A stretch of 64,000 bases of DNA. Source: Salinirubellus salinus (GTDB lineage: Archaea; Halobacteriota; Halobacteria; Halobacteriales; Haloarculaceae). The notes under the pieces were generated by a model. The model saw only the letters and a list, made by a program, of their open reading frames with translations. It ran no database searches and was not told the DNA's origin. The DNA lies in assembly GCF_025231485.1 (NCBI RefSeq), contig NZ_CP104003.1:2542001-2606000 (forward strand), read 5' to 3'. This document shows, piece after piece, positions 43,838-51,752 of this stretch (position 1 is its first letter; the number at the start of each line of letters is the position of its first letter). The translations under genes were made by a program, and so were the position numbers.

Positions 43838-45514
43838 TCAGTCCGAGACGAGGACGTCGACGACGCTCGGGCCGTCCGTCGCGAGCGCACGGTCGAGCGC
43901 CGGCGCGAGGTCGGCGTTCCGCTCGACGAGTTCGGCGCTGGCGCCGTGTGCCCGCGCGGAGCCGGCGACGTCCACCGGCGGGTCGAAGTCGGTCCCGAGG
44001 AACGCGTAGTCGGACTCCTCGCCCCCCTCGAGCGCCAGCATGTTGTCCTTCAGGATGCGGTAGTTGCGGTTGTCCGAGACGACCACCGTGAGGTCGAGGT
44101 CGTACCGCGCGGCCGTGTAGACGGCGTGCGGGTAGTAGAGGTACGAGCCGTCGCCGACGAAGCCGACGACGGAGCGCGGGTCCTCGCGCATCGACGCCGC
44201 GAGCGCGGCCCCGACGCTCGCGGGGAGGCCGTAGCCGAGACCGCCACCCTTGTTCGAGAGGAACTGGCGGGGCGAGAGCGGCCAGCGCCGGAGGAGCGCG
44301 TACTTCGAGGTGACGCCCTCGTCGACGAGGAAGGCGTCGGGGGCGGCCGCCCGGAGCGCGTCGGCGAGTTCGCCCTTCGTGGGTCGGTCGTCCGCCGACC
44401 CCGTGGCCGTCTCGACCCGGGCCGCAGCCCGCCGCTCGTGGGTGCGGTCGAGTCGACGCTCGCGGCGCGAGTCGGGAACACGGTCTGCGACGAGGTCGGC
44501 CAGCTCGCCGAGGTTCGCCGCGAGGTCGCCGTACACCACCGCGTCGACGGGCTCGTTCTTCCCGAGTTGCCACGGGTCGACGCCCACGTGGACGCAGGTC
44601 GTCTCGGGGTCGAGCAGCGGTCGCTCCCGCCGCGTCAGCGTGGTGTTCGTCGAGCAGCCGACGAACACGAGCGTGTCCGCGTCGAGGGTCTCGCGGGCAG
44701 GCCCCTCGCTCGACGGGACGAACGAGACCCACTGGTCGTGGTCGCCGGGGAAGCTCATCTCGGCGGAGAGGATCTCGCCGTGGACTCGCGCCCCGGACGC
44801 CTCCGCGAGGTCGACGGCCGCCTCGATAGCGTCGAGGCCGGCTCGTGCGACGTGGTCGCCGACGACGATAGCGAGGTCGTCGGCGTCGGCGATGTAGTCT
44901 GCGGCGTGGACGACCTGTTCTGGCGCGGCCCGGCCCGGTTTCGGAATGGGGCCGAGCCGCTCCGGGCCGCGCTCGGCGGGGGCCTGCATCACGTCCAGCG
45001 GCAGCGCGAGGAACACCGGCCCGGTCGGGGGCGTGAGCGCCACCCGGAACGCCCGCCGGAGCATCGTCGGGAGCGCCCGGACGTCGAGCACCTCGTCGCT
45101 CCACTTCGTGAACGGGGCGGCCATCTCGACGAGGTCGCCCGACAGGATTGGCTCCTCGTGGCGGAAGTCACGGCTGTGGTTGCCCGCGGTGACGACAAGC
45201 GGCGCACCGGCGACCATCGCACCGTAGAGGTTCCCCAGCCCGTGGGCGAGCCCCGGCGCGACGTGGAGGTTGGCGACGCCGACCGGGTTGACGGAGGGGT
45301 CGTCGTGGGCGTGGTAGCGGCGGGTGCTGGCGTAGCCCGCCGCCGCCCCGACCGCCACGTCCTCGTGGAGGCCGAGCACGTACTCGACGTCGCTGTCCTC
45401 GAGCGCGTGCATCACGGGGAGTTCGGTCGTCCCGGGGTTGCCGAAGACGTGCTGTACGCCGTAGCGTTCGAGGGCGTCGACGAACACGTCGGCGCCGGTG
45501 TCGCTGTCGGTCAT
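43838..45514 (-). CDS. ThDP-dependent decarboxylase, benzoylformate-decarboxylase-like
   Basis: 558 residues with the three ThDP-enzyme domains. The N-terminal FGNPGTTELPVMHAL carries the cofactor-activating Glu, ANLHVAPGLAHGLGNLYGAM matches the His-containing NLH loop of benzoylformate decarboxylase, and the C-terminal GDGSYLYYPHAVYTAAR to DNRNYRIL is the Mg-ThDP site. Acetolactate synthase-like FAD motifs are not evident. The reaction is probably non-oxidative decarboxylation of a 2-oxo acid, perhaps aromatic. It follows a TRAP importer by about 55 bases in the same direction, which may supply the substrate. Confidence 0.82.
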   Translation of the reverse strand: MTDSDTGADVFVDALERYGVQHVFGNPGTTELPVMHALEDSDVEYVLGLHEDVAVGAAAGYASTRRYHAHDDPSVNPVGVANLHVAPGLAHGLGNLYGAMVAGAPLVVTAGNHSRDFRHEEPILSGDLVEMAAPFTKWSDEVLDVRALPTMLRRAFRVALTPPTGPVFLALPLDVMQAPAERGPERLGPIPKPGRAAPEQVVHAADYIADADDLAIVVGDHVARAGLDAIEAAVDLAEASGARVHGEILSAEMSFPGDHDQWVSFVPSSEGPARETLDADTLVFVGCSTNTTLTRRERPLLDPETTCVHVGVDPWQLGKNEPVDAVVYGDLAANLGELADLVADRVPDSRRERRLDRTHERRAAARVETATGSADDRPTKGELADALRAAAPDAFLVDEGVTSKYALLRRWPLSPRQFLSNKGGGLGYGLPASVGAALAASMREDPRSVVGFVGDGSYLYYPHAVYTAARYDLDLTVVVSDNRNYRILKDNMLALEGGEESDYAFLGTDFDPPVDVAGSARAHGASAELVERNADLAPALDRALATDGPSVVDVLVSD

Positions 45515-45569
45515 GGTTGGGTATCGTGGGTGAGTGGGAAAAGTCCGGACCGCGAGGCCCGAAAGCCGA

Positions 45570-47564
45570 TCACTCCTGCGAGGGGGTCACGACGGCCGGC
45601 AGGCGGTCGAGCTGGGTCAGCCCCAGCCCCGCGAGCGCGAGCGTCGCGGCGCCGACCTGGACGGCGGTCATCGGGGCGTACAGGGCCACGAGCGAGAGCC
45701 CGAGGTACGCCGACCGGTGGGGGAGGCCGAGGTCGTGGCGCCCGTCGTAGCCGGTGGTCGCCGCGACGAGCGCGACGACGCCGACGAAGACGATGCCCGC
45801 GTGGAGCAGCGTCTCCGGGAACGACCAGAAGATGAGACTCCGGTTCGAGATGAACGCGAACGGGATGAAGAAGCCCGGCGCGCCGATACGCAGGGCCTGC
45901 ATCCCGGTCTGCAGGAAGTCCGCGTCCGAGATGCGTGCTCCGACGGCGACCGCCACCGCGACCGGTGGCGTGATGGCCGAGAGCATCGCGAAGTAGAACA
46001 CGAACAGGTGCGCGGTTATCTCGGGCACGCCGACCTGGATGATACCCGGCGCGACGAGGATGACCACGAGGATGTACGCGGCGGGCGTCGGCATCCCCAG
46101 TCCGAACAGGATGCTGAGGACCATCGCCATCAGGAGGACGGCGATGAGGACCCCACCCGCCAGCCCCACCATCCGGATGGAGATTTTCTGTGCCAACCCG
46201 GTCTGCGTGAGCATGCTGATGATGACACCCATCGCGGCCAGCACGCCGACGAGCGGGGCCATGTCGACCGCGCCGTCGCGGAACCCACGGAGCGTCTGGG
46301 CGGTCGTGTCGACCAGCGTCCGGACCGACGGGCCGTCGACCGCGAGGTTGCGGACGTACATCGTCCCGACCATCGTGAGCGCGGTGTAGAGCCCGGCACT
46401 CAGCGGGGTGAGCCGGAGGATCACGAGCGTGTAGACCAGCACCACCAGCGGGACGGCGAAGTGCGCGCCCCCGCGGAGGATGCTCCGGTCGAACTCGCCG
46501 GTCTTCTCGGTCGTCCAGCCGAACTTGAGGACGACGAACTGCACGGCGATACCGACGCTGAAGTAGAACAGCAGCGCCGGGAGCAGGCCGGCCTGGATGA
46601 TGCGCACGTAGGGCACCTGCAGGATGTCGGCCATGATGAACGCGGCGACGCCCATCACCGGGGGCATCATCTGCCCGCCGGAGGAGGCGACGCTCTCGAT
46701 GGCGGCGGCGAAGTCCTCGCGGACGCCCTGCCGCTTCATCATCGGGATGGTGAAACTGCCGGTCGTCGCGGTGTTGGCGGCGGCGCTCCCGGTGATGGAA
46801 CCCATCGCCATGCTGGAGATGACCGACACCTGGACGACGCCGGAGCGGAGCTTGTTGCCGAGCTCCGTCCCCACGTCGAGGATGTAGTCGAGCGCCCCGA
46901 ACGTCTTGGCCATCCCGGCGAACATGATGAAGATGGCCACCCACGTCGTCCCGACCCCGAGGATGAAGCCGTAGGTGCCGCTGAGACCGATGGCGCCGAA
47001 GCGGGCCACGTCCTGCCACGACATCCCGGTGTGGCCGAGGAAGCCGGGGAGCCACGGGCCGGCCATCGCGTAGGCGACGGCGGCGATCACGACGGAGGTG
47101 ATGGCGAAGCCGTAGGCGCGTCTGGTCGCGTCCGAGACGAGGAGGACGATGAGCGCGCCGACGACGAAGTCGACCTCGGAGTAGCCGAGGACGGGGGCGT
47201 CGAACTGGAGTCGCTGGAAGTTCAGTTCGACGTAGGTGGCGACCCCCACCGCGAGGACCGCCGAGAGCAGCGTCACGTAGCCGTCGTACGGCCCGACGAC
47301 CGACTGGATGCGGCCCGTGATGGAGCCGTCGTACTCGATGTCGCGGTCGCGGTAGGCCTCGATATCCTCCGTGCCGAAGACGTGTTTCTTCGTCTCGTAG
47401 AGGTAGAACAGGGCCACACCGGCGCCGAGGAAGACGTTCGAGTGTCGGACCCGGACGAACGGGCGGTCGAAGGCGTAGAACAGCATGTACGCGGTCAACG
47501 CGATGCCGATGACGGTGATGAGACTCGTCAGGGCGCGCTCCCGGGTGACGGTGGGGGTGTCCAT
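45570..47564 (-). CDS. TRAP transporter permease, fused DctQM type
   Basis: 664 residues with many hydrophobic segments. The N-terminal part has DctQ-like helices and the rest is a DctM-type core, e.g. GSITGSAAANTATTGSFTIPMM, the TRAP large-subunit signature, and FGLGMPTPAAYIL. This fused form is the usual partner of TAXI-type binding proteins. It would import an organic acid using the sodium or proton gradient. It is nine bases after the binding-protein stop. Confidence 0.92.
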   Translation of the reverse strand: MDTPTVTRERALTSLITVIGIALTAYMLFYAFDRPFVRVRHSNVFLGAGVALFYLYETKKHVFGTEDIEAYRDRDIEYDGSITGRIQSVVGPYDGYVTLLSAVLAVGVATYVELNFQRLQFDAPVLGYSEVDFVVGALIVLLVSDATRRAYGFAITSVVIAAVAYAMAGPWLPGFLGHTGMSWQDVARFGAIGLSGTYGFILGVGTTWVAIFIMFAGMAKTFGALDYILDVGTELGNKLRSGVVQVSVISSMAMGSITGSAAANTATTGSFTIPMMKRQGVREDFAAAIESVASSGGQMMPPVMGVAAFIMADILQVPYVRIIQAGLLPALLFYFSVGIAVQFVVLKFGWTTEKTGEFDRSILRGGAHFAVPLVVLVYTLVILRLTPLSAGLYTALTMVGTMYVRNLAVDGPSVRTLVDTTAQTLRGFRDGAVDMAPLVGVLAAMGVIISMLTQTGLAQKISIRMVGLAGGVLIAVLLMAMVLSILFGLGMPTPAAYILVVILVAPGIIQVGVPEITAHLFVFYFAMLSAITPPVAVAVAVGARISDADFLQTGMQALRIGAPGFFIPFAFISNRSLIFWSFPETLLHAGIVFVGVVALVAATTGYDGRHDLGLPHRSAYLGLSLVALYAPMTAVQVGAATLALAGLGLTQLDRLPAVVTPSQE

Positions 47565-47573
47565 CGGAGCGGG

Positions 47574-48692
47574 TTACTCCTCGCCGCGGGTGAACTCGTC
47601 CGACCAGAGTCCCTGCTCCTCGTAGAAGTCGGCGGCCGCCGGGTGGAACGGAACGCCGTCGTAGGCGTTCTTCACCCAGAACTCGCCGTCAGCGAGGTTG
47701 TTCAGGAGGCCGTGGTACTCGCCGAGCCCCTCGCGCTGTTCCCACATCGTCGAGAGGAGGTTGTAGACGGCGTCGTAGCTGAAGTCGTTCCGGACGACGA
47801 AGTTGTACGCGAGCGACGGCAACACGACCGGGTCGGGCGTGTAGGCGTAGTTCTCGAGGTCGCCGGTGTCGACCTCGGTGAGGAGGAGCCCCGGGTCCTC
47901 CTCCATCTTCGCGACCGTCTCGTCGGACCAGCCGAGCATCCGGAGGTCCGTCGTCCCCTTCATCTCCTGGAGCCAGCCGGGTTCGATGGAGAAGTTGACC
48001 AGCGTCGAGACGCCGACGTCGAGGCGGCCCTCGCTCATCGCGCTGCCCTGGCTCCCGTAGTCGATGCTGACGCGGTTGTAGTCCGCGCCGGAGTAACCGA
48101 GTGCGGTCTCGAGCATCTCCGCGGTCCCGGCCCCACGCGGGGCGGGCGAGACGCGACTCCCGGACTCGATGTCGCCCGCCGTCTCCCAGCCGTCGTTGGC
48201 GGTCGCGAAGAACCAGCCGAGGTCGTACAGGTGGAACACCTGGTTCGGCGTGAACGAGAGGTTCCCGAACGGCTCCTCGCCGGCGTTGATCTTCGCGGCG
48301 GTCCAGTTCTGGATGTACGCGATCTGGATCTCCTCGCGGTCGAGGCGGCCGATGTTGGCGTTCGTCCCCTCGCTGGGACGGGCGTCGAGGCGGACCTCCT
48401 CGCTGTTCTCGTTGACGACCGCCGCGATACCCTGACTCATCGCGTAGGCGGCCGTCGTCTCCGTCGAGGTGGTCATGACCATGTCCGTCGGGCCGGAGCC
48501 ACCGTCGCTGCTGCCAGAGTCGGCGTCGCCGCCGCCGCTCCCCCCATCGTCACCGCTCCCGTCGCCGCTCCCGTCGCCGTTCCCCCCACCCATACAGCCG
48601 GCGAGGGCCGTGACACCGGCCGCGCCAGCGGTTCCCTTCAGGAAGGTTCTGCGGTCCACGTCGCCACTACTATTTAAATAATGCCGTGTCAT
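47574..48692 (-). CDS. TAXI-family TRAP solute-binding Tat lipoprotein
   Basis: 372 residues. DRRTFLKGTAGAAGVTALAGC is a twin-arginine signal with lipobox, followed by a Gly/Ser/Asp linker. The mature part has TAXI features, e.g. YAMSQGIAAVVNENSEEVRLD, NIGRLDREEIQIAYIQN and a C-terminal WTTx-like region. It binds an organic acid outside and hands it to the fused permease. Start ATG 48692 is supported by a TATA box about 30 bases upstream on the minus strand. Confidence 0.9.
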   Translation of the reverse strand: MTRHYLNSSGDVDRRTFLKGTAGAAGVTALAGCMGGGNGDGSGDGSGDDGGSGGGDADSGSSDGGSGPTDMVMTTSTETTAAYAMSQGIAAVVNENSEEVRLDARPSEGTNANIGRLDREEIQIAYIQNWTAAKINAGEEPFGNLSFTPNQVFHLYDLGWFFATANDGWETAGDIESGSRVSPAPRGAGTAEMLETALGYSGADYNRVSIDYGSQGSAMSEGRLDVGVSTLVNFSIEPGWLQEMKGTTDLRMLGWSDETVAKMEEDPGLLLTEVDTGDLENYAYTPDPVVLPSLAYNFVVRNDFSYDAVYNLLSTMWEQREGLGEYHGLLNNLADGEFWVKNAYDGVPFHPAAADFYEEQGLWSDEFTRGEE

Positions 48693-48716
48693 ACTGATTC
48701 GGAGTTTCGGACATAC

Positions 48717-48726
48717 GCATTAATAC
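48717..48726 (-). promoter_or_regulatory. TATA box of the TRAP operon
   Basis: On the minus strand GTATTAATG centred about 30 bases before the ATG at 48692 fits a leaderless promoter. The 180-base divergent gap around it is notably AT-rich. Confidence 0.5.
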
Positions 48727-48841
48727 CTTATGATAGATGCGGAATTTTGCTGAACATTGTAACTTGTTCTCACTCATGATTTAACAGAGTACGGAAATCC
48801 GCCGGATATGCTGAGCAGGCTCCACCCGGATTGACAAGGCT

Positions 48842-48848
48842 CTTTTAC
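48842..48848 (+). promoter_or_regulatory. TATA box of acyl-CoA ligase
   Basis: CTTTTAC about 30 bases before the ATG at 48875, identical to the EF-2 box. Confidence 0.5.
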
Positions 48849-48874
48849 TTGTTGTCCATCTCGTCCCGTACCGA

Positions 48875-50425
48875 ATGACCAATCTCGTTGCCGAGGTCGC
48901 CGCGGCCGTGGACGAGTACCCCACGGAGACCGCCATCGCCTACGACGGTACTGTCACCTCCTACGAGGAGTTCTGGGACCGAGCCGGCCGGTTCGCGGCC
49001 GCCCTCGACGAACGCGGCCTCGGGCCGGACGACCGCGTCGCCATCTACCTGCCGAACCTCCCGCAGTTCGTGACGGCGTTCTACGGGACGCTCCGCGCCG
49101 GCGGCATCGTCGTCCCGATGAACCCGCAGTACAAGGCCCGCGAGATAACGCACCTCCTCTCGGACTCGGGGACGAAGGCCGTCGTCACCCTCGCCGAGAA
49201 CGCGGGCGCCGTCGAGTCGGTCGTTCCCGAGACGGACGTCGAACACGTCGTCAGCGTCGGCGAGGACGTCGAGTCGGCGACCGAGTTCGAAGCCTTCCTC
49301 GCGGACGAGACGCTCGACGTGGTCGACCGGGCCGACGACGACGTCGCCTGCCAGCCCTACACCTCGGGGACCACCGGGAAACCGAAGGGCGTCCTCCTGA
49401 GCCACCACAACCTCGCGTGGACCGGCCGGACCAACGCCGAGCTGGTCGAGGGCGGCCTCACCACCGACGATGGCCTCGTCGGCACGCTCCCGCTGTTCCA
49501 CATCTACGGGATGTCCGTCGTGATGAACGCCGCACTCGTCAACGGCGCGGCCTACTACCCCGTCACCGAGTGGGATGCCACCGAGGTGATGACGAGCATC
49601 GAGGAGCACCGCCTCACCGTGATGTACGGCGTCCCGGCGATGTTCAACGACATGATCAACCAGCCGGACGCCACCGACTACGACCTGAGCTCGCTCCGGT
49701 TCATCAACTCCGGCGGCGACTCGCTCCCCATCGAGGTACTGGAGACGTTCGAGGAGCTGTTCGACGCCGAACTCTACGAGGGGTACGGCCTCACCGAGAC
49801 CAGCCCCACGACCCACGCGAACAAGCCCGGTGCCCGCCGCAAGGGCAGCATCGGCAAGCCCCTCCCCGGCGTCGACTCGAAGGTCGTCGGCCCGAACTTC
49901 GAGCCGATGCCCCGCGTCGAGGAAGGGCCCGTCGACGAGGACGTCGACCTCGACGCGGTCGTCGGCGAGATCGTCGTCGCCGGCCCGAACGTGATGCAGG
50001 GCTACTACGGACTCCCCGAGGCCAACGCGGCCGCGTTCACCGACGAGGACGGCACCCGCTGGTTCCACACCGGCGACCTCGGCTACTGGGACGAGGACGA
50101 CTTCTTCTACGTCGTCGACCGCGACAAGCACATGATCGTCACGGGGGGCTACAACGTCTACCCCCGCGAGATAGAGGAACTCCTCTACGAGCACCCAGAC
50201 GTCGCGGAGGCCGCCGTCGTGGGTATCCCGGACGAACGCCGTAACGAGACGGTCAAGGCGTTCGTCGTCCCCGTCCCCGACGCCGACCTCTCGGGCGAGA
50301 CCATCAAGGAGTACTGTCTCGACCGCCTCGCGGCCTACAAGCACCCCCGCGAGGTCGCCATCGTGGACGAACTCCCGCGGACGACGACCGGGAAGGTGCA
50401 GAAGTACGAGCTGGAGAACGAGTAG
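48875..50425 (+). CDS. Acyl-CoA ligase (AMP-forming)
   Basis: 516 residues of the ANL superfamily. YTSGTTGKPKGVLLSHHN is the P-loop (A3), EGYGLTETSP the A5 motif, WFHTGDLGYWDED the A7 region, DRDKHMIVTGGYNVYPREIEE the A8 hinge, and TTTGKVQKYEL carries the catalytic Lys (A10). It would activate an acid (fatty, aromatic or dicarboxylic) to its CoA thioester. It is divergent from the TRAP operon and convergent with an acyl-CoA dehydrogenase, so the region looks like a catabolic cluster. Confidence 0.9.
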   Translation: MTNLVAEVAAAVDEYPTETAIAYDGTVTSYEEFWDRAGRFAAALDERGLGPDDRVAIYLPNLPQFVTAFYGTLRAGGIVVPMNPQYKAREITHLLSDSGTKAVVTLAENAGAVESVVPETDVEHVVSVGEDVESATEFEAFLADETLDVVDRADDDVACQPYTSGTTGKPKGVLLSHHNLAWTGRTNAELVEGGLTTDDGLVGTLPLFHIYGMSVVMNAALVNGAAYYPVTEWDATEVMTSIEEHRLTVMYGVPAMFNDMINQPDATDYDLSSLRFINSGGDSLPIEVLETFEELFDAELYEGYGLTETSPTTHANKPGARRKGSIGKPLPGVDSKVVGPNFEPMPRVEEGPVDEDVDLDAVVGEIVVAGPNVMQGYYGLPEANAAAFTDEDGTRWFHTGDLGYWDEDDFFYVVDRDKHMIVTGGYNVYPREIEELLYEHPDVAEAAVVGIPDERRNETVKAFVVPVPDADLSGETIKEYCLDRLAAYKHPREVAIVDELPRTTTGKVQKYELENE

Positions 50426-50560
50426 GTGGCGCGTCTCTCGTCGTCGTCGCTGATTCGGGGAGTTTCGGAGCGGAGGGAGAGCGTTCGGTCCGGTCTCGTC
50501 TGTGTACTCGCGGACCCACGGTTCCGCGCTCGGGTCGAGAGTTCGCTGCGCTCGCGTTCC

Positions 50561-50589
50561 CGCGAAACCTAGTTTCGCTCGGTTTCGCG
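50561..50589. terminator. Hairpin between convergent genes
   Basis: CGCGAAACC (50561-50569) and GGTTTCGCG (50581-50589) form a 9-base stem with an 11-base loop just beyond the stop of the acyl-CoA dehydrogenase gene. It could end its transcript or that of the ligase. The remaining gap (50426-50560) holds further weak GC palindromes only. Confidence 0.5.
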
Positions 50590-50591
50590 CC

Positions 50592-51752
50592 TTACTCGAA
50601 CGCCGCGATACCCGTCAGGTCGTGGCCGATGATGAGCGAGTGGATGTCGTGGGTCCCCTCGTACGTGTAGACCGTCTCGAGGTTCGCCATGTGGCGCATC
50701 GGCGAGTAGTCCGCGGTGATGCCGTTGCCGCCGAGCATCTCGCGGGCGATACGCGACTGGTCGCGGGCCATCCGGACGTTGTTCCGCTTGGCCATCGATA
50801 TCTGTGCGGGCTGGAGGTCGCCGCGCTCCTTCAGGTCCGTCAGCCGGTGGGCGAGCAACTGGGCGGTCGTGATCTGGGTCGCCATCTCCGCGAGCTTCTC
50901 CTGCTGGAGCTGGAACCCCGCGATGGGCTTGCCGAACTGCTCGCGGTCCTTCCCGTACTCGAGCGCCGTCTCGAAGCAGTCACGCGCGGCACCGATTGCG
51001 CCCCACGCGATGCCGAAGCGGGCCTGCGAGAGACAGGACAGCGGCCCCTTCATCCCCTCGACACCGGGCAGGACGTTCTCTTCGGGGACGTACACGTTCG
51101 AGAGTTCGATCTGCCCCGTGATGGACGCGCGGAGCGAGAGCTTCTCGTCGATCTTCGGCGTCTCCACGCCGTCGCGGTCCGTCTCCACGAGGAAGCCCTT
51201 CACCGTGTCGTCGTCCGAGCGGTCCTTCGCCCAGACGAGCGCCACGTCGGCGATGGGGGAGTTGGTGATCCACGTCTTCGTCCCGTTGAGGACGTAGCCC
51301 TCGTCCTCGGCCTCGGCGTACGTCTCCATCGAGGACGGGTTCGAGCCGTGGTTCGGTTCGGTCAGGCCGAAACAGCCGATGGCCTCGCCGCGGCCCATCG
51401 CCTCCAGCCAGCGGTCCTTCTGCGCCTCGCTCCCGTAGCTGTGGATGGGGTACATCACGAGCGAGCCCTGGACGCTCGCCATCGAGCGCAGCCCCGAGTC
51501 GCCCGCCTCGAGTTCCTGCATCAGGATGCCGTAGGCCTTCTCCGAGAGGTTCGGCAGGCCGTAGCCCTCGAGGTTGGGCGCGAAGAACCCGAGTTCACCC
51601 ATCTCGGGGATGAGGTCGGTCGGGAACGTCCCCTCGACCCAGTGGTCGGCGACGACGGGGTCGAACTTGTCCTCGACGAACTCTCGCGCGGTCTGCTGCA
51701 CCATGCGCTCCTCCCGGCCGAGGTCCGCCTCCAAGTCCACGTAGTCTAACAT
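50592..51752 (-). CDS. Acyl-CoA dehydrogenase, glutaryl-CoA-dehydrogenase-like
   Basis: 386 residues. The sequence follows glutaryl-CoA dehydrogenase closely: RSMASVQGSLVMYPI, LTEPNHGSNPSS, WITNSPIADVALVWAK, LSLRASITGQI, ARFGIAWGAIGAARDCFE, and YEGTHDIHSLIIG near the end, with the catalytic Glu in the TYEGTHD stretch. It is FAD-dependent and would oxidise, and perhaps decarboxylate, glutaryl-CoA or a close analogue. It lies convergent with the acyl-CoA ligase. I am sure of the family but not of glutaryl-CoA as the substrate. Confidence 0.87.
   Translation of the reverse strand: MLDYVDLEADLGREERMVQQTAREFVEDKFDPVVADHWVEGTFPTDLIPEMGELGFFAPNLEGYGLPNLSEKAYGILMQELEAGDSGLRSMASVQGSLVMYPIHSYGSEAQKDRWLEAMGRGEAIGCFGLTEPNHGSNPSSMETYAEAEDEGYVLNGTKTWITNSPIADVALVWAKDRSDDDTVKGFLVETDRDGVETPKIDEKLSLRASITGQIELSNVYVPEENVLPGVEGMKGPLSCLSQARFGIAWGAIGAARDCFETALEYGKDREQFGKPIAGFQLQQEKLAEMATQITTAQLLAHRLTDLKERGDLQPAQISMAKRNNVRMARDQSRIAREMLGGNGITADYSPMRHMANLETVYTYEGTHDIHSLIIGHDLTGIAAFE

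Follow-up and report, generated by a model that had tools for sequence, protein, structure and literature searches.

A conserved haloarchaeal TAXI-TRAP importer locus with ThDP and acyl-CoA enzymes: a tentative route for uptake and breakdown of a C5-type dicarboxylate

Within a 64,000-nucleotide stretch of the archaeon Salinirubellus salinus (contig NZ_CP104003.1, positions 2,542,001 to 2,606,000; hereafter the window, from a genome of 4.38 Mb in 2 contigs), five neighbouring genes at 43838-51752 encode the two proteins of a TAXI-TRAP importer, a thiamine-diphosphate (ThDP)-dependent enzyme, an AMP-forming acyl-coenzyme A (acyl-CoA) ligase and a glutaryl-CoA-dehydrogenase-like (GCDH) acyl-CoA dehydrogenase. 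The genes are identifiable at family level, and the linkage of importer, ThDP, ligase and GCDH genes is conserved among relatives and not a matter of chance. We tentatively read the locus as an uptake-and-breakdown cluster for an organic acid, for which our best candidate is a C5-type dicarboxylate that lacks an amino group (glutarate or a closely related acid), and we give this reading a probability of roughly 0.4. A preliminary description of the same DNA had treated the five genes as a single functional cluster, a view that the strong synteny in relatives supports.

Organization of the locus

Open reading frame coordinates and family searches confirm the five genes, which are arranged with one intergenic feature as follows.

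43838-45514, minus strand: ThDP-dependent enzyme resembling 2-oxo acid decarboxylases, 558 aa; its gene closes the TAXI-TRAP operon
45570-47564, minus strand: TRAP transporter fused permease, 664 aa (TIGR02123 and DctM)
47574-48692, minus strand: TAXI-family solute-binding protein, 372 aa, with Tat signal and lipobox-like Cys (TIGR02122, TAT_signal)
48693-48874, no strand: divergent predicted promoter region between binding protein and ligase
48875-50425, plus strand: AMP-forming acyl-CoA ligase, 516 aa (Pfam AMP-binding and AMP-binding_C)
50592-51752, minus strand: GCDH-like acyl-CoA dehydrogenase, 386 aa (PDB sequence matches, YEG motif)

The minus-strand operon is as tight as first claimed, with gaps of 9 bases between binding protein and permease and 55 bases between permease and ThDP gene, and is probably co-transcribed. 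The ligase is divergent from the binding protein across a gap of 182 bases, in which an alignment of three sequences revealed no convincing regulatory motif (L033 and L189 align in short stretches only). The ligase and GCDH genes are convergent in the window and hence do not form one operon.

The Pfam families over cut-off comprise three TPP domains, DctM, NMT1_3 with the TAT signal, AMP-binding with its C domain, and acyl-CoA-dehydrogenase domains; the NCBIfam models shown for the ThDP enzyme, the ligase and GCDH all score below their own cut-offs. The binding protein exceeds the cut-off of TIGR02122 (TRAP_TAXI; 94.0 bits, cut-off 84.35) and the permease that of TIGR02123 (TRAP_fused; 453.5 bits, cut-off 320.65), and the fused single membrane protein encoded 9 bases from the binding-protein gene is the arrangement that marks a TAXI-TRAP system. 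The binding protein is the sole match over the family cut-off in the genome, and its AlphaFold2 (AF2) model is nearest to TAXI structures, six of which it matches at Z 24.8-28.9. Its lipobox-like Cys was recognised by eye in the translation.

Linkage is conserved within and beyond the family

Among the 146 genomes of the window's family, 26 carry the TAXI binding protein, a count without the weaker additional binding-protein loci (30-36% identical) and without the second fragment of a broken gene in G123, where a stop splits the binding-protein gene of an otherwise intact operon (G123:C1:508556-509575). Within 15 kb of the binding protein, the ThDP gene is found in 21 of these 26 genomes, GCDH in 10 and the ligase in 9; random placement expects 0.25, 0.34 and 0.20 genomes, respectively. 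At least one of ThDP and GCDH is present in 25 of the 26 and both in 6. The ligase, found under strict thresholds in 39 of the 146 genomes, follows the importer even where unlinked, occurring in 24 of the 26 genomes with the binding protein versus 15 of the 120 without it (Fisher test, kinship not corrected). The preliminary description had called a ThDP enzyme inside a TAXI-TRAP operon unusual and had held that a lack of synteny in relatives would speak against the cluster; our check of operon conservation finds that synteny is strong and that the pairing is common in haloarchaea having the importer.

The ThDP enzyme itself occurs in 59 of the 146 family genomes, and a second copy, 60% identical, lies elsewhere in the window's genome without an importer. 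A survey that started from the ThDP matches (69 regions, genes from a simple composition-based caller) found the order binding protein, permease, ThDP in 21 loci, the window counted. Three of these have extra genes or a longer permease-ThDP gap (L051, L058, L062) and one a broken binding protein (L053); in all 20 loci with an intact called binding protein the three genes share one strand. In four loci (L036, L037, L038 and L044) the ligase lies on the same strand, 42-84 bases downstream of the ThDP gene. Common surroundings of the ThDP gene also include a short-chain dehydrogenase/reductase (SDR), an F420-dependent luciferase-like enzyme (TIGR04024), MBL-fold and HAD hydrolases and a GlcD-like FAD oxidase, the SDR and the TIGR04024-family enzyme being its most constant company (L068:3924-5701 and many loci). 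Divergent TAXI binding protein and permease pairs near ThDP homologues in L128 and L130 apparently represent another TAXI type. On a Natrononativus plasmid (L105:8570-18365), a ThDP homologue adjoins a PotD-type ABC importer, aminotransferases and a histone-deacetylase-like gene, which suggests a polyamine or arginine route for that branch.

Across the order, the binding protein was found in 64 of 392 genomes, of which 17 belong to the family of the window. From outside the family 49 regions were fetched and 48 analysed: L218 was lost when the gene caller missed its binding protein, and L210 and L211 are identical copies from one genome. Within 10 kb, GCDH is present in 31 of the 48 loci, the ligase in 36 and ThDP in 6, together with a second acyl-CoA dehydrogenase (40), thiolase (34), 3-hydroxyacyl-CoA dehydrogenase (28) and IclR (30); in seven loci ThDP, GCDH and ligase are all missing. 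A gene order seen repeatedly runs IclR, GCDH, binding protein, permease, ligase, acyl-CoA dehydrogenase, thiolase and 3-hydroxyacyl-CoA dehydrogenase, of which a Natronorubrum aibiense plasmid offers an annotated example. Many relatives hold the full set of ligase, acyl-CoA dehydrogenase, 3-hydroxyacyl-CoA dehydrogenase, thiolase and GCDH, of which the window has only ligase and GCDH adjacent. Loci L212-L217 have binding protein, permease and ThDP, joined by the ligase in L212 and L217 and by GCDH in L212. On plasmid 1 of Halalkalicoccus jeotgali B3 (L252:12902-14547), the ThDP gene behind the TAXI permease is reduced to a remnant, interrupted by in-frame stops and lacking a proper start. A methyl-accepting chemotaxis transducer gene near the importer cluster in L187 and L188 perhaps encodes a receptor for the same compound.

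Two enzyme modules share one importer family

A permease tree of 67 rows, omitting the duplicates L190 and L211 as well as L053 with its broken binding protein, L218 and low-scoring relatives, divides into 18 importers with ThDP only, 37 with GCDH or ligase only, 8 with both and 4 with neither. Well-supported branches require at least four changes in the state of having both modules, which implies repeated encounters or repeated losses of the modules. The window unites the ThDP module and the acyl-CoA module, and the importers nearest its own after that of L033, those of L189 and L203, are accompanied by parts of the acyl-CoA module but lack a ThDP gene; near L189 lies a mandelate-racemase-family gene. 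From these patterns on the permease tree, and from the ligase placed directly behind the ThDP gene in L036-L038 and L044, we take ThDP, ligase and GCDH to be linked chemistry around one imported acid. It is very unlikely, in our judgement, that the window merely has two independent units side by side, the TAXI-ThDP operon and a ligase/GCDH pair with no relation to it. Such an accident would suit the convergent ligase and GCDH genes of the window and the 18 of 26 ThDP-linked rows that have neither gene nearby, but the same importer family stands beside ligase or GCDH without ThDP in 37 of the 67 rows, and the two modules come together in several distinct clades.

On the ThDP tree, from which ThDP fragments of less than 500 aa were left out, the TAXI label changes 10 times, 7 of these changes being forced by starred branches, versus 18.3 in shuffles. 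Although the trees of the ThDP and TAXI genes looked different, a shared history withstood approximately unbiased (AU) tests (p 0.19, 0.26 and 0.50), and we therefore dropped the idea of separate histories and make no claim of them.

The binding site and acyl-CoA enzymes point to a probable dicarboxylate substrate

In the glutamate-binding protein VcGluP, according to passages of PMC11574862, the side chains of Y45, Q93 and E125 hold the amino group of the ligand, and S75 holds its alpha-carboxyl. With these the window's binding protein aligns Ala82, Gln128, Leu158 and Thr110, respectively, so that two of the three amine-holding side chains, Y45 and E125, are replaced, by Ala82 and Leu158. The loss of amine ligands while carboxylate-side residues are kept fits a dicarboxylate without an amino group. 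Leu158 is present in 26 of the 26 binding proteins compared and Ala82, Thr110 and Gln128 each in 25 (the exception is L191), and this pattern is common to importers of both kinds, those next to the ThDP module and those next to the GCDH module. Although the mapping has only 18-20% identity behind it, the two folds superpose over 288 residues at Z 24.9. In those same passages the TAXI ligands named are mostly dicarboxylates (glutamate, 2-oxoglutarate and o-phthalate), and a mutant affecting butyrate and acetate use is cited there as suggesting these two compounds for one system.

The GCDH-like protein matches, along its full length, ten PDB sequences at E <= 1e-115, nine of them named glutaryl-CoA dehydrogenase (one 'putative') and one acyl-CoA dehydrogenase. 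It falls short of the NCBIfam model GlutCoADH_Des (230.1 bits, cut-off 470), which we take to represent the Desulfococcus-type, non-decarboxylating enzyme. In the alignment with human 1siq, equivalents of Arg94 and Glu87, residues of the GCDH carboxylate site, are conserved. The YEG motif also aligns with that of 1siq, and a passage of PMC8360864 gives its catalytic Glu as Glu370 in human GCDH.

None of the family models shown for the ligase is over cut-off, so they assign it no substrate; the best is long-chain-fatty-acid CoA ligase, at 441.4 of 476 bits. This match would suit a general importer for short- or medium-chain fatty or branched-chain acids coupled to ordinary beta-oxidation, with a GCDH of other specificity and a ThDP enzyme acting on branched-chain 2-oxo acids, as would the second acyl-CoA dehydrogenase, 3-hydroxyacyl-CoA dehydrogenase and thiolase that relatives add and the TAXI mutant with altered butyrate and acetate use cited in the passages of PMC11574862. 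We nevertheless regard such an importer as unlikely: the GCDH-like gene product is far closer to named glutaryl-CoA dehydrogenases (about 1e-116 and below) than to other acyl-CoA dehydrogenases in the PDB (1e-81 and weaker), with the one exception named acyl-CoA dehydrogenase.

For the favoured C5-type dicarboxylate, we infer the ligand, the substrate of each enzyme and the order of steps as follows, the assignment to glutarate or 2-oxoadipate being our own. The Tat-exported, lipid-anchored TAXI protein would bind the acid and the fused TRAP permease would import it, whereupon the ligase would form its CoA ester. The GCDH-like enzyme would then oxidise and decarboxylate glutaryl-CoA to crotonyl-CoA, and a hydratase, a 3-hydroxyacyl-CoA dehydrogenase and a thiolase would carry the product on to acetyl-CoA; in relatives the genes for the last two lie in the importer cluster, and the window's genome encodes homologues of both at other places. 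The ThDP enzyme may turn a 2-oxo acid into an aldehyde that would join the same route once oxidised, the most economical guess being conversion of 2-oxoadipate to glutarate semialdehyde.

The ThDP enzyme resembles but does not match benzoylformate decarboxylase

The TPP_enzyme_N, M and C domains, a catalytic Glu and the GDG...N motif place the ThDP enzyme in the decarboxylase/carboligase superfamily; Glu51, His84 and the GDGS motif are conserved. Its best NCBIfam model, benzoylformate decarboxylase PRK07092, scores 292.6 bits, below the cut-off of 493. Of Ser26, His70 and His281, which we take to be the active-site residues of benzoylformate decarboxylase, the His70 equivalent is invariant, Ser26 is replaced by Thr in all 20 aligned sequences and the His281 position is not His. 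With the score under cut-off and two of three positions different, we rejected benzoylformate decarboxylase as the identity of the enzyme.

This result bears on the route first proposed, for an aromatic 2-oxo acid or a dicarboxylate. The dicarboxylate half is favoured by the recurrence of GCDH, ligase, thiolase, 3-hydroxyacyl-CoA dehydrogenase and a second acyl-CoA dehydrogenase and by the mostly dicarboxylate TAXI ligands in the passages of PMC11574862; the aromatic 2-oxo acid is unsupported because the model score is far below cut-off and the His281 position is lost. A full aromatic scheme would have the importer take up an aromatic or bulky acid, a benzoylformate-type decarboxylase act on it, the ligase, acyl-CoA dehydrogenase and thiolase degrade the aromatic or alicyclic product, and GCDH receive glutaryl-CoA from ring cleavage. 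In its favour are the closest named ThDP sequences, which are benzoylformate decarboxylases, the o-phthalate TAXI system cited in the same passages, the PaaI- and MaoC-type genes that accompany the importer of H. jeotgali and the mandelate-racemase-family gene near L189. Given the residue changes and model score above, and since the partly scanned neighbourhoods held no recognised ring-cleavage, ring-oxygenase or ring-reductase gene, we consider it distinctly unlikely.

The AF2 model of the ThDP enzyme (pLDDT 86.6) aligns at Z 41-43.5 with structures of ThDP decarboxylases and carboligases. Its top match, the ThDP-dependent HKA synthase at Z 43.5, is tied with acetohydroxyacid synthase and benzoylformate decarboxylase, so the matches place the fold and do not tell decarboxylase from carboligase. 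That the enzyme is a carboligase of acetolactate or acyloin type instead of a decarboxylase feeding the breakdown seems quite improbable: acetolactate synthase models match as well, at lower scores, but sequence matches favour benzoylformate decarboxylases and the ThDP gene recurs in the company of organic-acid importers.

A more elaborate form of the dicarboxylate route, unlikely as we see it, would serve a 2-oxodicarboxylate such as 2-oxoadipate, with an importer of one conserved binding site supplying two interchangeable modules, for ThDP decarboxylation and ligase/GCDH oxidation, that were joined, split and rejoined in evolution.

Bacterial homologues of the ThDP enzyme are 32-40% identical, and single loci lie directly beside a DctP-TRAP (L179), TTT (L165) or ABC importer (L159). 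Such isolated cases in a set of 37 loci (L149-L185, three with haloarchaeal titles) are too few for a rule, and profiles detected no TAXI importer beside the bacterial homologues in that set. In the Rokubacteria contig (L179:5193-11278), DctP, DctQ and DctM genes stand directly upstream of the ThDP homologue, which is followed by a second, different ThDP gene. In L176 and L185 the homologue occurs with a luciferase-like enzyme and an aconitase-like gene, to which L185 adds citrate-synthase-like and SDR genes and L176 a PrpF gene, a methylcitrate-like arrangement with a ThDP enzyme.

Discussion

Several observations weigh against a route for glutarate or a close relative. The mapping of the binding site depends on an alignment at 18-20% identity, and the ligase is over cut-off in no dicarboxylate-ligase model (PimA TIGR03205, 309.9 of 705.6 bits; malonyl-CoA synthase, 371.7 of 558). 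GCDH is common, occurring under strict thresholds in 104 of the 146 family genomes, and the importers linked to ThDP mostly stand apart from ligase and GCDH, as counted on the permease tree. Of the acyl-CoA module, only ligase and GCDH are adjacent in the window; homologues of the L033 thiolase and acyl-CoA dehydrogenase lie elsewhere in the genome (77% and 79% identical), and its closest counterparts to the L188 3-hydroxyacyl-CoA dehydrogenase reach only 44-46% identity. The PaaI- and MaoC-type genes of the H. jeotgali importer cluster fit other acyl-CoA routes too. Finally, no aldehyde dehydrogenase was seen among the scanned neighbours and no hydratase in the core Natrialbaceae-like layout, with profiles that did not include either family.

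Compared with known systems, the importer shares with the glutamate TAXI-TRAP systems VcGluP and TtGluBP the binding-protein fold (Z 24.8-28.9), the fused permease and the Gln and hydroxyl residues of the ligand site, but it is about 20% identical, has two amine-binding residues replaced, is archaeal and is linked to acyl-CoA and ThDP enzymes. A 2-oxoglutarate TAXI-TRAP of Proteus mirabilis, cited in the passages of PMC11574862, is a further known system of this kind. The ThDP enzyme shares with the benzoylformate decarboxylase MdlC the three ThDP domains, the catalytic Glu and the His70 equivalent at 26-28% identity in the structure alignment, and departs from it in model score and at the Ser26 and His281 positions. 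Bacterial clusters for glutarate or pimelate catabolism contain a CoA ligase, acyl-CoA dehydrogenase, thiolase and GCDH. The same kinds of enzyme are gathered with a regulator in the window's relatives; the window's cluster differs in being archaeal, in its TAXI-TRAP importer, in a ligase outside the PimA model and in the added ThDP enzyme. The Rokubacteria locus likewise places a ThDP homologue immediately after its importer genes, but it is one locus, with a DctP-type TRAP instead of TAXI and a second ThDP gene in tandem. A literature search, mostly at the level of abstracts and passages, recognised no description of the cluster or of the importer-ThDP pairing, so one may exist.

The conserved neighbourhood ties an archaeal TAXI importer to glutaryl-CoA chemistry and thereby yields a short list of ligands to test, and the linkage hints at what the ThDP and ligase genes, which carry no more than generic labels in RefSeq, may do. 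Were the 2-oxodicarboxylate route true, it would provide a defined substrate for an archaeal TAXI-TRAP system and a new use for a benzoylformate-decarboxylase-like enzyme.

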